Positions 3,719-24,525 of a DNA stretch of 64,000 nucleotides are shown here, one piece after another (position 1 is the stretch's first letter; each line of letters opens with the position of its first letter). Below the pieces are notes generated by a model, which worked only from the letters and a program-made list of their open reading frames with translations, made no database searches and was not told the origin of the DNA. Both the position numbers and the translations under genes were made by a program. This stretch comes from Altererythrobacter sp. KTW20L (GTDB lineage: Bacteria > Pseudomonadota > Alphaproteobacteria > Sphingomonadales > Sphingomonadaceae): assembly GCF_023501975.1 (NCBI RefSeq), contig NZ_JAMFLH010000006.1, positions 62,001 to 126,000 on the forward strand, in the 5' to 3' direction.

Positions 3719-3778
3719 TCACCATCATGCCTGCCGCGCCCATATCGTCCGCCGGGGCGGGGTGCAATGGGCGGGGAA

Positions 3779-3852
3779 TGGAGGCCCGAGCCGGAATCGA
3801 ACCGGCGTGCAAGGATTTGCAGTCCTCTGCGTAACCACTCCGCCATCGGGCC
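3779..3852 (-). tRNA. tRNA-Cys (GCA)
   Basis: A 74-nt cloverleaf on the minus strand with encoded CCA. The acceptor arm is GGCCCGA paired with TCGGGCC, the anticodon loop CTGCAAA gives GCA, and the T loop is GGTTCGATTCC. It lies 60 bp upstream of tRNA-Thr on the same strand, so the two may be co-transcribed. Confidence 0.95.
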
Positions 3853-3965
3853 TCGTATTCCCATGCGACAGAGCGCGGGCAACTAGCGAATGGGCACCCG
3901 CGTTGCAATCTGAATCGTTGGCTGTGATAGGGGGCAGCACGAACTATGGAGTGGACTGCGCCGAT

Positions 3966-5459
3966 ATGGCCGACGACAAACCCAAGCTGCAACGTGTGGA
4001 AGGCCACAGCGAGGAGCGCTTTCTTGGCTCCGACGTCTTCGAGAGCAATGCGCGTAACTTGCCGCCGCCCAACGGTTCGGGCACCGTGCGCGAGGAGGCG
4101 CGCGACATCGCGGTCTATCACAAGTGCGACGTGGCGGTGATCGGCGGCGGCCCTGCGGGCTGCGCGGCGGCCTGGGCGGCGGCGAAGTCCGGGGCGGATG
4201 TCACGTTGGTCGAGCGCTACAACTGCCTGGGCGGGCTTTCCACCGGCGGGCTCGTCATGTGGATCGACCGGATGACGGACTGGCATGGCAACCACGTGAT
4301 CCAGGGCTATGCCCGCCACTTCATCGACCGCATGCCGCCCGAGGCCGTGGCCGGCCCTCCGCGCGAGGACTGGGGCAGCAATGATGTGGACAAGTTCGAA
4401 TATTGGCGCAACCGCACCACGGCATTCCATGGCATCGTCCAGTGGGCGCCGACGCTCGACCCCGAGCGGATGAAGCTCAACAACCAGGAGATGCTGCTGG
4501 AGGCGGGCGTGCGGATCGTGTTCCACGCCTGGGCGGCGCGGCCGCTGGTCGAGGACGGGGCGGCGAAGGGCGTCATCTTCGAAAGCAAGATGGGCCGCCA
4601 CGCGCTGCTCGCCAAGGTGGTGGTCGACACCACCGGCGATGGCGACATGTTCGCCCGCGCCGGGGCGGAATTCGATACCGATATCGAGGAAGGCGATGTC
4701 CACCATTCGATGAACACCGGCTGGGTGCTGGGCGGGGTCAACATGGACCGGTGGATTGACTGGAAGGTCCATCATCCGGACGAGTTGCGCCAGTTCATGG
4801 AGCGCGGGCGACAGGAGCTGGGCTATTTCCAGACGCCCTATGTCAGTTGGCGGCCGGACATCGCGCTATTCCTTGGGCCGCGCCAGTCGGGCCTCAGCGC
4901 GCTCGACGTGGATGACCAGACCGAGGTGGAAATCCGCAGCCACCGGCTGATGGAAGGACATTGCCAGTTCTTCCGCCGCCATGCGCCCGGGTTCGAGCAT
5001 GTTTACAGCCTCCAGAGCGCCAGCCAGCTTGGCGTGCGCCATACGCGGCGGCTGGCGGGGCTGGGGCGGATCGAGCGCAAGGACTGGCCGCGCGGCACGC
5101 CTGCGCCGGACGAGGTCGGCGTCTCGCCTTCGATCAGCCCCAAGTTCCCGGTGGTCTCCGTGCCATACGGCGCGCTGGTGCCGCGGGCGCTCGATGGCCT
5201 GCTGGTCGGCGGGCGTCATGTGAGCTGCGATGCGAACAGCCACGGCTTCATGCGCGAGATCCCGCAGTGCTGGCTGACCGGCCACGCGGCGGGGGTTGGC
5301 GCGGCGCTGGCAGCTGATGCGGGTATCGAGCCGCGCGCGGTCAAGGTCGATGCGATCCGCAAGGTGCTGCGCGAACAGGGCGCACACCTGACCGACGACG
5401 CGGCGGTCCATGATGCGCGCGCAGGCGAGGCTGCACTCGCGGGTGAAGGGGCCGCCTGA
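3966..5459 (+). CDS. FAD-dependent oxidoreductase
   Basis: A 497-residue flavoprotein of the FAD_oxidored type. A dinucleotide-binding fold starts near residue 54: VAVIGGGPAGCAAAW with the glycine cluster at 60-65 and an acidic end of strand two (TLVER, 80-84). A conserved CLGGLSTGGLV stretch follows at 87-97, a VVDTTGDGDMFARAG strand in the middle and GLLVGGRHVS toward the end, which closes the FAD site. There is no signal peptide or membrane segment, so it is cytoplasmic. The substrate cannot be told from sequence. ATG 3966 was chosen because upstream codons run through the tRNA-Cys gene. The gene stands alone: tRNAs on one side, repeat copy A and a convergent cold-shock gene on the other. 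Confidence 0.8.
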   Translation: MADDKPKLQRVEGHSEERFLGSDVFESNARNLPPPNGSGTVREEARDIAVYHKCDVAVIGGGPAGCAAAWAAAKSGADVTLVERYNCLGGLSTGGLVMWIDRMTDWHGNHVIQGYARHFIDRMPPEAVAGPPREDWGSNDVDKFEYWRNRTTAFHGIVQWAPTLDPERMKLNNQEMLLEAGVRIVFHAWAARPLVEDGAAKGVIFESKMGRHALLAKVVVDTTGDGDMFARAGAEFDTDIEEGDVHHSMNTGWVLGGVNMDRWIDWKVHHPDELRQFMERGRQELGYFQTPYVSWRPDIALFLGPRQSGLSALDVDDQTEVEIRSHRLMEGHCQFFRRHAPGFEHVYSLQSASQLGVRHTRRLAGLGRIERKDWPRGTPAPDEVGVSPSISPKFPVVSVPYGALVPRALDGLLVGGRHVSCDANSHGFMREIPQCWLTGHAAGVGAALAADAGIEPRAVKVDAIRKVLREQGAHLTDDAAVHDARAGEAALAGEGAA

Positions 5460-21742: not shown

Positions 21743-22903
21743 GTGGTTTCGGCTAAAATAGTTATCGCACCCGTTTCGGGCAAGGGCGACCTTACTGCGT
21801 TCATAGAACTGGCTTACCGGCTGAACGCCGACGATCCCAACTGGGTGCCGCCCCTGCGCGCCGACATGGTCGAACTGCTCACCCCCGGGCGCAACCCGTT
21901 CCACGAACATGCCCGCGTGCAGTATTTCCTCGCCCGCCGCGATGGCAAGGTGGTGGGGCGCATATCGGCCCATATCGACGAACTGGCGCTGCAGCAGCCG
22001 CCCGAACAGGGCATGGGTCCGGGCACCGGCAACTGGGGCCTGCTGGAAGCGGACAACGAGGATGTGGCGCTGGCCCTGATCGCTCGGGCGGAAGACTGGC
22101 TGCGCGGCGAGGGGATGACCCGCGTGCTCGCCCCGATCAGCCTCTCGGTGTGGGAGGAGCCGGGCCTGCTGACCCACGGCCACGACCATCCGCCGATGAT
22201 CATGATGGGGCATCACAAACCGCACTACCAGGGCTGGATCGAGAGTTTCGGCTATGATGTCGCCAAGAAGCTCTACACCTACGACCTTCATTCGGTCGAA
22301 AAGGGTTTTCCCGAACTGGTCAACCGCATCGTGGCGCTGGGCGAGAAGGGCAGCAAGATCCGCGTCCGCCCGGTGGACAAGTCGCGCTTTGACGAGGAGG
22401 CGGCGGTCATCCTGTCGATCCTCAACGAGGCATGGTCGAGCAACTGGGGCTTCGTGCCCTTCACCGAGACCGAGAAAGCCTATGGCGGTAAGAAGCTGAA
22501 GCCAATTATCCTGGAAGGCGCCAACATGATCGCCGAGGTGGATGGCGAGCCTGCCGCTTTCATGCTTGCCTGGCCGGACGTGAACCAGAAGCTGATCCAC
22601 ATGAACGGGCGGCTGTTCCCGTTCAACTGGGCCAGGCTGCTGTGGTGGCTACGCAATCCGCAGAGCCCCAATTTCCGCGTGCCCCTGATGGGCGTGGTGA
22701 AGAAATACCAGAACAGCCGCATGGCCAGCCAGCTGGCCTTCATGATGATCGAATATATCCGCCGCTATGCCGTGGAAAAGCACGGCGCGCGACGGGCAGA
22801 AGTGGGCTGGGTGCTGGAAGACAACCAGGGCATGGTCGCCATTGCCGATGCCATCGCCGCGAAGATGAACCGCGAATACCGGATCTATTCCAAGGCGCTG
22901 TAA
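21743..22903 (+). CDS. GNAT-like N-acetyltransferase family protein
   Basis: A 386-residue protein resembling the YghO/GNAT-like group. The N-terminal part reads FIELAYRLNADDPNWVPPLR and YFLARRDGKVVGRISAHID, a GNAT-type strand pair; the C-terminal part has GVVKKYQNSRMASQLAFMMI and GWVLEDNQGMVAIADAI, like an acetyl-CoA-binding end. Such proteins are often near lipid genes, and a desaturase lies divergently upstream, but no substrate is known. The start is GTG at 21743. The 94-bp divergent region should hold both promoters. Confidence 0.7.
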   Translation: MVSAKIVIAPVSGKGDLTAFIELAYRLNADDPNWVPPLRADMVELLTPGRNPFHEHARVQYFLARRDGKVVGRISAHIDELALQQPPEQGMGPGTGNWGLLEADNEDVALALIARAEDWLRGEGMTRVLAPISLSVWEEPGLLTHGHDHPPMIMMGHHKPHYQGWIESFGYDVAKKLYTYDLHSVEKGFPELVNRIVALGEKGSKIRVRPVDKSRFDEEAAVILSILNEAWSSNWGFVPFTETEKAYGGKKLKPIILEGANMIAEVDGEPAAFMLAWPDVNQKLIHMNGRLFPFNWARLLWWLRNPQSPNFRVPLMGVVKKYQNSRMASQLAFMMIEYIRRYAVEKHGARRAEVGWVLEDNQGMVAIADAIAAKMNREYRIYSKAL

Positions 22904-22988: not shown

Positions 22989-23420
22989 ATGGTAAGCGCA
23001 ATTGCGACAAAACGGTCAAAGCGAGGCGGGCAGCGGGTGCTGCTGGTCGAGGACGATCCCGTGCTGGCGCTGGACCTTGAAGCGGCCCTGCTCGATGCCG
23101 GCGCACGCGAAGTGGTCATTTGCCCCACCATGGCGGCTGCCCTCGCTTATCTCGAACAGTCGCGCCCCGATGCGATCATCCTTGATGTGCATCTGGCCGA
23201 CCGGGACGATGGCTGGGCGCTGGCCGAACTGGCGGGCATGCTGGCCACGCGCCTGCCGCGCATCGCCTTCTCCACCGGATCGCCGGAGGACATCCCGCCC
23301 GCCATCCGCGAGCTGGGGCCGGTGTTCGAAAAGCCGTATGATTCGCGCCACCTCGCCGATGTCCTGCTCAACCAGAAGAAGACCGGCCTGATCGAGCGCC
23401 TGCGCGACGCGTTGCGGTAA
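22989..23420 (+). CDS. Single-domain response regulator
   Basis: A 143-residue receiver domain without an output domain. QRVLLVEDDP (16-24) holds the acidic pair, IILDVHLAD (63-71) the phosphoacceptor Asp66, FSTGSPED the conserved Thr/Ser and FEKPYDS the lysine. Single receivers next to phyR often act as phosphate sinks or modulators of the general stress response in alphaproteobacteria; proximity (314 bp) and a possible EcfG promoter support that here. There is no kinase next to it. ATG 22989 follows GGGGG-rich sequence. Confidence 0.88.
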   Translation: MVSAIATKRSKRGGQRVLLVEDDPVLALDLEAALLDAGAREVVICPTMAAALAYLEQSRPDAIILDVHLADRDDGWALAELAGMLATRLPRIAFSTGSPEDIPPAIRELGPVFEKPYDSRHLADVLLNQKKTGLIERLRDALR

Positions 23421-23476
23421 CGCGTAGCCGAGCCCGCACCCGCCATAGTTCCGCCTCGCCCATCCAAAACGAACAA

Positions 23477-23564
23477 AGAAAAAGGCCCCCGCTCGGTGGA
23501 GCGGGGGCCTGGGGATCGTGTCACCGTCGGCTTGGACGGGAGGGGGGTGTCTCGGCGGTGACAT
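23477..23564 (-). ncRNA. Candidate EcfG-dependent small RNA, C-rich loop
   Basis: Minus-strand interval of about 88 nt that starts 7 nt after the -10 element of an exact EcfG-type promoter (23571-23595) and ends at a perfect 12-bp terminator (23479-23510). Its 5' end folds into GTCACCG/CGGTGAC (23556-23562 with 23520-23526), a 7-bp stem whose large loop exposes CCCCCCTCCC (complement of 23538-23547). A C-rich accessible loop resembles the anti-Shine-Dalgarno seed of other alphaproteobacterial sRNAs such as Caulobacter GsrN. No open reading frame of note lies inside, and no coding gene on this strand would need the terminator. Confidence 0.7.
23479..23510 (-). terminator. Intrinsic terminator on the minus strand
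   Basis: AGGCCCCCGCTC (23483-23494) pairs perfectly with GAGCGGGGGCCT (23499-23510) around a 4-nt loop. The run of five A at 23479-23483 becomes TTTTT on the minus strand, while the plus strand has no T-run after the stem. It therefore terminates leftward transcription and belongs to the candidate sRNA rather than to the receiver gene. Confidence 0.85.
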
Positions 23565-23570
23565 AGGGAT

Positions 23571-23595
23571 AACGGCAACGTCGGTGCGGGGTTCC
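23571..23595 (-). promoter_or_regulatory. EcfG-type promoter of the candidate sRNA
   Basis: On the minus strand GGAAC (23595-23591), 16 nt, CGTT (23574-23571): an exact match to the EcfG (sigma-EcfG/sigma-T) consensus GGAAC-N16/17-CGTT. The predicted start is near 23564. Confidence 0.75.
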
Positions 23596-23673
23596 CGCAG
23601 GGCACCAAAAATTTCGCAAAAAATTCCTCTCCCATCACCTCTGCCCACGAATGTCCTGTTCTGTCTTGCTTTT

Positions 23674-23698
23674 GGAACCGTTGCGGCGCTTGTGCGTT
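23674..23698 (+). promoter_or_regulatory. EcfG-type promoter of phyR
   Basis: GGAAC at 23674-23678, 16 nt, CGTT at 23695-23698, an exact consensus match 36 bp upstream of the phyR ATG. It implies positive autoregulation of phyR by the general stress response, as in other alphaproteobacteria. Confidence 0.85.
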
Positions 23699-23733
23699 TG
23701 AAAGGCGACCATCTGACCGGGAAGGGTATAATC

Positions 23734-24525
23734 ATGTCTATTGGGGCCGAAGTAGCCGCTCATCTTCCGTTCCTGCGGCGCTATGCGCGCGCGCTCACGG
23801 GTTCGCAGTCCACTGGCGATGCGTTCGTCAAAGCGACGCTGGAGGCCGCCCTGGCCGATTCTGCACTGGCTGACAGCCTGCGCGGCGGGCGCGTGCCGCT
23901 CTATGCCGCATTCACCAAGCTGTGGGCCAGCGCCTATCTGGAAACTGTCGGCGATCCGCGCGATGCTTCGCTGCACGAACTGGCGGCACAGGGCCAATTG
24001 AGCAAGATCACCCCGCTCAACCGCCAGGCGCTGTTGCTGACCACGGTGGAGGATTTCGCGCCTGCCGAAGCAGCCAAGGTGATGGAAGTCAGCGAGGACG
24101 AAGTGCGCGAACTGGTGCGCGAGGCCGTGGCCGAGATCGACCGCGAGAGCACCACGTCAGTCCTCATCATCGAGGACGAGCCGCTGATCTCGATGCAGCT
24201 GGAAGATCTCGTTTCCTCGCTGGGCCACGAAATCTGCGGCACGGCGGCCACCCGCACCCAGGCGGTCGAAGTCGTGTCCAGGCAGACGCCGGGCCTGGTG
24301 CTGGCCGATATCCAGCTGGCCGATGGCTCGTCCGGCCTTGATGCAGTGGACGATATCCTGGCGATTGCCACGGTGCCGGTGATCTTCATCACGGCCTATC
24401 CCGAACGCCTGCTGACCGGCAACCGGCCCGAGCCGACCTATCTCATCACCAAGCCGTTCCAGGAAGACACGGTGAAAGCCGCGATCAGCCAGGCGCTGTT
24501 CTTCGGATCCAGCCGCCCGCTCTGA
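23734..24525 (+). CDS. phyR: General stress response anti-anti-sigma factor PhyR
   Basis: A 263-residue protein with the PhyR architecture. Residues 1-135 are a sigma-factor-like domain (HLPFLRRYARALTGSQ, LNRQALLLTTVEDFAPAEAA, a region-4-like helix-turn-helix at about 110-130). Residues 142-262 are a receiver: VLIIEDEP (acid pair), LVLADIQLADG with the phosphoacceptor Asp192, FITAYPE and ITKPF with the lysine. When phosphorylated, PhyR binds the anti-sigma factor NepR and releases EcfG. The ATG follows GGAAGGG with suitable spacing. nepR and ecfG, often adjacent, are not in this window. The gene converges on a MATE exporter with a 4-bp gap. Confidence 0.95.
   Translation: MSIGAEVAAHLPFLRRYARALTGSQSTGDAFVKATLEAALADSALADSLRGGRVPLYAAFTKLWASAYLETVGDPRDASLHELAAQGQLSKITPLNRQALLLTTVEDFAPAEAAKVMEVSEDEVRELVREAVAEIDRESTTSVLIIEDEPLISMQLEDLVSSLGHEICGTAATRTQAVEVVSRQTPGLVLADIQLADGSSGLDAVDDILAIATVPVIFITAYPERLLTGNRPEPTYLITKPFQEDTVKAAISQALFFGSSRPL

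Follow-up and report, generated by a model that had tools for sequence, protein, structure and literature searches.

A candidate small RNA gene divergent from phyR and tied to the general stress response

What does the minus strand encode in the interval between phyR and the response regulator gene upstream of it? Stress frees the sigma factor EcfG from NepR through PhyR, and GsrN is, to our knowledge, the only small RNA of the general stress response of Alphaproteobacteria that has been studied well. In the window, by which we mean the whole 64,000-nt stretch of Altererythrobacter sp. KTW20L DNA that was analysed, an earlier note had read the interval as an EcfG-dependent small RNA gene. The features on which the answer turns are these:

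23734-24525, plus strand: phyR, encoding the anti-anti-sigma response regulator of the general stress response (Pfam, NCBIfam)
23674-23698, plus strand: divergent predicted EcfG promoter of phyR, GGAAC-N16-CGTT (sequence and phyR leaders)
23607-23614, minus strand: A/T tract AAATTTTT, UP-element-like, upstream of the −35 box (sequence and homologues)
23571-23595, minus strand: predicted EcfG promoter of the small RNA, GGAAC-N16-CGTT (sequence and homologues)
23477-23565, minus strand: predicted small RNA of about 89 nt, its unmapped 5' end placed from the −10 box
23519-23563, minus strand: 5' hairpin presenting the C-rich loop (fold and helix 1 pairing)
23534-23547, minus strand: loop CCCCCCUCCCGUCC, the candidate seed (fold and alignment)
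23511-23518, minus strand: single-stranded linker CGAUCCCC, the second invariant unpaired stretch (fold and alignment)
23478-23510, minus strand: intrinsic terminator, a 12-bp stem and U-run (fold and helix 2 covariation)
22989-23420, plus strand: single-domain response regulator gene, a convergent neighbour and not part of the RNA (Pfam Response_reg, 7.3e-9)

On the minus strand the unit runs in order from the promoter (GGAAC at 23595-23591, a 16-nt spacer, CGTT at 23574-23571) through a hairpin with a C-rich loop and a linker to a 12-bp terminator stem and a U-run. The segment 23477-23565 has a fold energy of −41.7 kcal/mol, whereas its shuffles average −23.5 and none of 200 equalled it (z −5.74). 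In this fold the outer stem of the 5' hairpin comprises 8 bp (23563-23556 with 23526-23519) and exposes the loop, whose C-rich motif is CCCUCCCGUCC, while the terminator stem is unbroken over 12 bp across 23510-23483 and is followed by the U-run. Both parts bear out the earlier note, which had described a transcript of about 88 nt with a 5' fold exposing a C-rich loop and a perfect terminator at its end. Its remark that this terminator serves no minus-strand gene also stands, both neighbouring genes being on the plus strand. A leader of a downstream minus-strand gene was rejected, the next gene in the window lying on the other strand, as was a protein-coding reading: the C-run varies from 5 to 9 nt, an ATG occurs near the 5' end in just 81 of 169 loci, and no start is conserved. 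At gathering score Rfam matched two tRNAs in the whole window and no family at the RNA; at E up to 1, eight loci gave four sub-threshold matches, two of which (ctRNA_p42d) lie over the terminator. With its own predicted promoter, no reading frame, a conserved unpaired stretch and a terminator, the unit has, as judged from its sequence, the features that define an intrinsically terminated small RNA.

What in this unit exceeds chance? The promoter string by itself is not significant and is not enriched in the genome: GGAAC-N16/17-CGTT occurs 40 times and its reversed control 85 times, and the four matches to GGAAC-N16/17-CRTT in the window, where 1.71 were expected, were equalled by 10 of 100 shuffles. 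The evidence that exceeds chance is conservation and not the promoter match. A search with a 102-nt query recovered the RNA from 38 of the 40 genus members examined, its own genome among them (E no worse than 1.1e-5), and a covariance model, R1, was built from 37 of those 38 sequences, one near-duplicate being left out. R1 matched 118 of 298 genomes of the family at E 4.4e-12 or better, with 40 genera counted among the matches listed; at E 0.01 it matched 166 of the 298, the weaker ones probably being for the most part chance or terminators. In the window R1 covers 23476-23566 at 90.3 bits, a score to be read with the window's own sequence among those that built the model. All strong matches in 296 genomes of the order fell within the window's family, with five genomes outside it at 5.9e-4 or worse. 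The four strong matches in 337 genomes of the class belong to the same family; two others were weak (1.6e-5 and 3.1e-5), look like plain gene terminators and were rejected as homologues.

A pattern scan returned at least 119 stretches, and 91 of the 100 searched with R1 matched at E 5.2e-15 or better; the other nine (Methylocystis, Rhizobium, Kiloniella and others), with no strong R1 match and no GGAAC upstream, were discarded as chance. The carrying genera include Novosphingobium, Erythrobacter, Porphyrobacter, Qipengyuania, Croceicoccus, Croceibacterium, Tsuneonella, Pontixanthobacter, Aurantiacibacter and others, and the named Erythrobacter carriers are E. cryptus (L182), E. fulvus (L175), an E. 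sanguineus MAG (L139), E. rubeus (L165) and E. donghaensis (L188). The sampled loci are related, so that counts are not independent events. The earlier note had held that relatives keeping the promoter without a conserved hairpin and terminator would speak against the RNA, and the covariance search did not find that pattern. We found no earlier description of the RNA in the open-licence literature searched, and the words sRNA, ncRNA and small RNA are absent from the paper on the Sphingomonas melonis EcfG regulon (PMC6599016).

The alignment of these homologues separates covarying helices from fixed unpaired sequence. In 89 distinct rows, from 90 sources picked to limit redundancy and in an alignment that leans towards structure because it was fitted to the model, 97.8% of helix cells are paired against 89.9% in shuffles, 149 helix cells are double-changed against 35.5, and 16 of 21 pairs are changed on both sides against 7.9. 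When the partners are slid by one column, pairing falls to 50-51%. Helix 2, the terminator, holds most of the covariation (12 of 13 pairs changed on both sides); in helix 1, the 5' hairpin, 98.2% of cells are paired and 4 of 8 pairs are changed on both sides. The fold z lies below −2 in 43 of 43 homologues (every fourth of 169). Within the loop, UCCCGUCC is 99-100% identical per column over the 89 distinct rows and the C-run ahead of it, variable in length as noted above, is 92-100% identical; in the linker, CGAUCC is nearly invariant and GAUCC is 100% identical in the 89 rows. Invariant unpaired sequence carried on covarying helices, in a unit that has a promoter and a terminator to itself and lacks a reading frame, points to a trans-acting RNA. 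Variant loops do occur: one genome of genus g96 has a more divergent C-rich loop, and four members of the genus (L034, L036, L037, L038) combine a lengthened loop, CCCCCCUCUUCCCGUCC, with a different phyR ribosome site, AAGAGGGAA, possibly a linked change and at most one event.

Does the RNA belong to the stress response? The product of the divergent neighbour matches Pfam PhyR_sigma2 (1.1e-22) and PhyR_sigma-like (2.2e-22) and the NCBIfam PhyR family (360.5 bits; cut-off 240), and nepR, with a CGTT promoter, lies about 62 kb off on the same contig, outside the window. phyR was found in 160 of 170 distinct loci and is upstream and divergent in 160 of 160, its distance from the loop having a median of 213 nt and spanning 138-1566 nt; the remaining ten loci hold 904 nt or less upstream. 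In Qipengyuania proteolytica (L150), a gene at 3727-4473 that by eye resembles a Crp/Fnr regulator stands between the RNA and phyR. On the other side, 162 of 170 sRNA loci share a downstream gene, on the strand opposite to the RNA, for a GNAT-like protein (386 aa; window 21743-22903). The best NCBIfam match of the response regulator at 22989-23420 is the PhyR family at 51.6 bits, below the cut-off of 240, and this regulator may act in stress signalling.

Loss of the RNA was traced in five genomes of carrying genera (G019, G029, G208, G258, G175), picked among the genomes listed with no full tally (unlisted genomes without a match number 112 in the family and 141 in the order), where R1 matches are no better than 4.3e-5. 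NepR was not found in any of the five and is present in five RNA-bearing comparison genomes. PhyR-domain matches are lacking in G019, G029 (86% complete) and G208; those of G258 and G175 (29.6 and 41.9 bits, above the Pfam cut-off) were rejected as PhyR, being ECF sigma factors that lack a receiver domain. In ten other genomes compared, the phyR adjoining the RNA scores 60-83 bits for the PhyR domain; a contig end truncates the RNA in G297 and G304. The PhyR-NepR system has apparently been lost in these scattered genomes. PhyR was found in 23 of 33 genomes, most of which had been selected for a poor RNA match or none. G321, one of the 23, carries the divergent RNA; beside the phyR of the remaining 22 no promoter-plus-terminator unit was detected by a rule that misses stems without a T-run, as at L207, L209 offering one distant candidate unit. 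Across the order, then, the RNA does not belong to the core of the response. We regard the tie between the predicted sRNA gene and the general stress response as strongly supported, given its conservation, its covarying helices, its synteny with phyR and its absence together with PhyR and NepR.

The two divergent promoters are built differently. Each of the 172 distinct homologous loci has a GGAAC no more than 75 nt upstream of the loop (from 181 distinct upstream regions examined, nine without GGAAC were left out as chance pattern matches), and CATT or CGTT follows 16-17 nt later in 158. The −10 box is CATT in 141, CGTT in 17 and another sequence in 14 (ten of them CGTA; at L126, one of the deviating 14, the nearest GGAAC is oddly placed). 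The exact EcfG consensus claimed in the earlier note is therefore present in this genome but atypical, most homologues having CATT. Among 163 phyR leaders, by comparison, CGTT was found in 135, CATT in 1, CTTT in 1 and no promoter in 26. In the two bins 20-11 nt upstream of GGAAC, A/T content averages 83% and 86% at 169 sRNA loci and 46% and 43% at 136 phyR promoters, and an upstream A/T run of at least 6 occurs at 99% of the former versus 31% of the latter. This architecture, CATT with a UP-like tract set against the CGTT of phyR, should give different strength or timing. In Sphingopyxis granuli, EcfG promoters are reported to vary in the −10 box, with CATT among the commoner variants within the EcfG regulon, EcfG polymerases to transcribe a CATT promoter in vitro, and a change from CGTT to CATT to lower output in vitro (PMC7083833); CATT is thus compatible with EcfG, as a weaker −10 box. 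On the promoter sequence and these published tests, we predict that the RNA is EcfG-dependent. Two divergent promoters for which one sigma factor is predicted offer a natural contrast between an A/T tract with CATT and a CGTT box.

How would such an RNA act? We propose that it is probably a trans-acting, EcfG-driven small RNA that works like Caulobacter GsrN. As promoter conservation and shared loss suggest, EcfG RNA polymerase would transcribe phyR one way and the RNA of about 89 nt the other way. According to the alignment, the 5' hairpin would hold out the nearly invariant loop, followed by the invariant unpaired CGAUCC, and the terminator would end the transcript. The loop would most likely pair with G-rich sites at the translation start regions of mRNAs, with blocking of translation somewhat likelier than activation. 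Our commitment is to a mechanism class, a base-pairing sRNA of the stress regulon, with no target named.

Pairing was scored against three sets of leaders. In 28 katG leaders of the genus, with mRNA ends assumed, the loop had a mean rank of 0.57 against shuffles and the linker 0.51, each with 0 of 28 at 0.05 or better; a wider stretch of the RNA formed single strong duplexes with katG (e.g., L258, L279) that are not common to other leaders. For the first 60 distinct phyR leaders the mean rank of the loop was 0.44, with 0 of 60 at 0.05 or better for the loop and 3 of 60 for the linker, and 60 GNAT control leaders gave 3 of 60 (loop) and 5 of 60 (linker), again not beating shuffles. In the RNA's own genome, the 9-mer complements GACGGGAGG occur near an ATG four times against three for the control, none convincing. 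The loop as a seed against Shine-Dalgarno sequences, an idea of the earlier note, thus stays plausible, but the katG, phyR and GNAT leaders pair with it no better than shuffles do. Several katG leaders (L258-L287) carry GGATC some 57-65 nt ahead of the start codon; it is complementary to the linker, not significantly so, and is probably part of the katG promoter region.

The ribosome-binding site of phyR (window 23718-23737) could be a target, and we treat it as a lead. It takes the unusual form CGGGAAG in 56 of 157 distinct leaders with the RNA (L001-L205) and similar G-rich forms in many other RNA-bearing loci; in PhyR-bearing genera without the RNA the site is, by eye, mostly of the GGAG type. 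The only copy of CGGGAAGGG in the window is at phyR, and (C)GGGAAGGG of the phyR site can pair with CCCCUCCCG of the loop with one mismatch. Duplexes between the standard loop and the phyR site reach −15.7 to −18.8 kcal/mol in four examples from Aurantiacibacter, Qipengyuania and Novosphingobium. Other Aurantiacibacter gave −14.7 and −11.9, two examples of Erythrobacter type −13.5 and −5.8, and two genera lacking the RNA −11.4 and −6.2. We consider it unlikely that the RNA feeds back on the gene divergent from it and so tunes PhyR synthesis.

Other readings of the locus differ in what they ask of its conserved parts. If no functional RNA were made, the hairpins would insulate divergent and convergent transcription units, and the terminator does lie between the convergent response regulator gene and the phyR region. 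A terminator, however, needs no invariant loop, linker or promoter of its own, yet those are the most conserved parts, and no T-run follows the stem on the plus strand, which makes insulation highly improbable. A real RNA might instead be read mainly by another sigma factor, given CATT in 141 of 172 sRNA loci against CGTT in 135 of the 137 phyR promoters found; but the GGAAC −35 box and 16-nt spacing are features of EcfG promoters, the RNA is absent together with PhyR and NepR, and CATT promoters are reported in the Sphingopyxis granuli EcfG regulon, one of them transcribed in vitro (PMC7083833). We think it very unlikely that a different sigma factor is the main one.

The remaining alternatives concern what the RNA does and where it comes from. 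Proteins could bind its two fixed unpaired stretches, the leaders tested yielded no mRNA partner, and an RNA sponge is reported in Caulobacter (PMC12559287), all of which would fit an RNA that binds protein or sponges another RNA instead of pairing with mRNAs. We nevertheless consider that quite unlikely, as the C-rich loops of GsrN are described as pairing with G-rich mRNA sites (PMC5869019) and the anti-Shine-Dalgarno motifs of NfeR1 as pairing with mRNA sites (PMC10746234). The RNA could also be a true GsrN orthologue that has diverged beyond sequence recognition: its position by the core stress locus, EcfG-type promoter and C-rich 5' loop are those of reported GsrN candidates, and the GsrN target sites given are G-rich, implying pairing by a C-rich loop (PMC5869019). 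Beyond the window's family R1 matched nothing strongly, either among 337 class genomes, however many Caulobacteraceae these include, or among 296 order genomes; this weighs weakly against orthology, which we hold to be doubtful. The reading that we favour is the base-pairing, EcfG-driven small RNA.

For a large group of bacteria, among them Erythrobacter, Qipengyuania, Novosphingobium, Croceicoccus, Aurantiacibacter and others, the RNA is a candidate stress sRNA. Its fixed loop and place by phyR make the repeated gain of C-rich-loop RNAs in stress responses testable in cultivable bacteria.

The comparison extends to other RNAs with C-rich unpaired sequence. NfeR1 is reported to block translation through anti-Shine-Dalgarno motifs, and the alpha-r14/NfeR1 RNAs share with the RNA described here a C-rich unpaired motif suited to Shine-Dalgarno sequences; unlike it, with its one such loop, they are described as having three hairpins, each with CCUCCUCCC (PMC10746234). 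CCUCCUCCC occurs in 0 of 169 homologues, and with no Rfam match at gathering score we do not place the RNA among the alpha-r14/suhB RNAs. The putative GsrN-like RNAs of Rhizobiaceae were likewise proposed because they lie close to the stress locus and have an EcfG site and a C-rich loop, there with transcription data in addition (PMC5869019). As far as that account goes, those candidates come from a handful of species, whereas conservation, covariation and shared loss were here measured in one family, and we liken the two by description.

GsrN itself offers the closest parallel. Its transcript is processed into a stable 5' form, and the full-length molecule depends on Hfq. In Caulobacter its C-rich loop is reported to act on the katG leader and to enhance KatG expression, and GsrN candidates were recognised or noted because they lie close to the core stress genes, have a promoter of EcfG type and carry a C-rich loop in their 5' part (PMC5869019). 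An exposed cytosine-rich 5' loop, described as the most conserved part of GsrN in Caulobacteraceae (PMC5869019), is found here by fold and alignment alike. GsrN is made by an EcfG-type sigma factor, as is predicted from sequence for this RNA, and its gene is typically near core stress genes in Caulobacteraceae, Caulobacter crescentus excepted (PMC5869019). The differences are that the loop here is CCCCCCUCCCGUCC, that katG leaders show no pairing with it beyond shuffles, and that R1, in a one-way search of 337 class genomes whose Caulobacteraceae share is unstated, found nothing strong outside the window's family. Erythrobacter litoralis, an outgroup in that work, is said there to have no apparent gsrN-like gene (PMC5869019), and several other named Erythrobacter carry the RNA found here. 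The logic comparable to Caulobacter GsrN that the earlier note saw is borne out by the exposed C-rich 5' loop, the predicted EcfG-type promoter and the locus by phyR, as a likeness that implies nothing about descent. On present evidence the RNA would work like GsrN, a likeness of kind for which we claim no membership.
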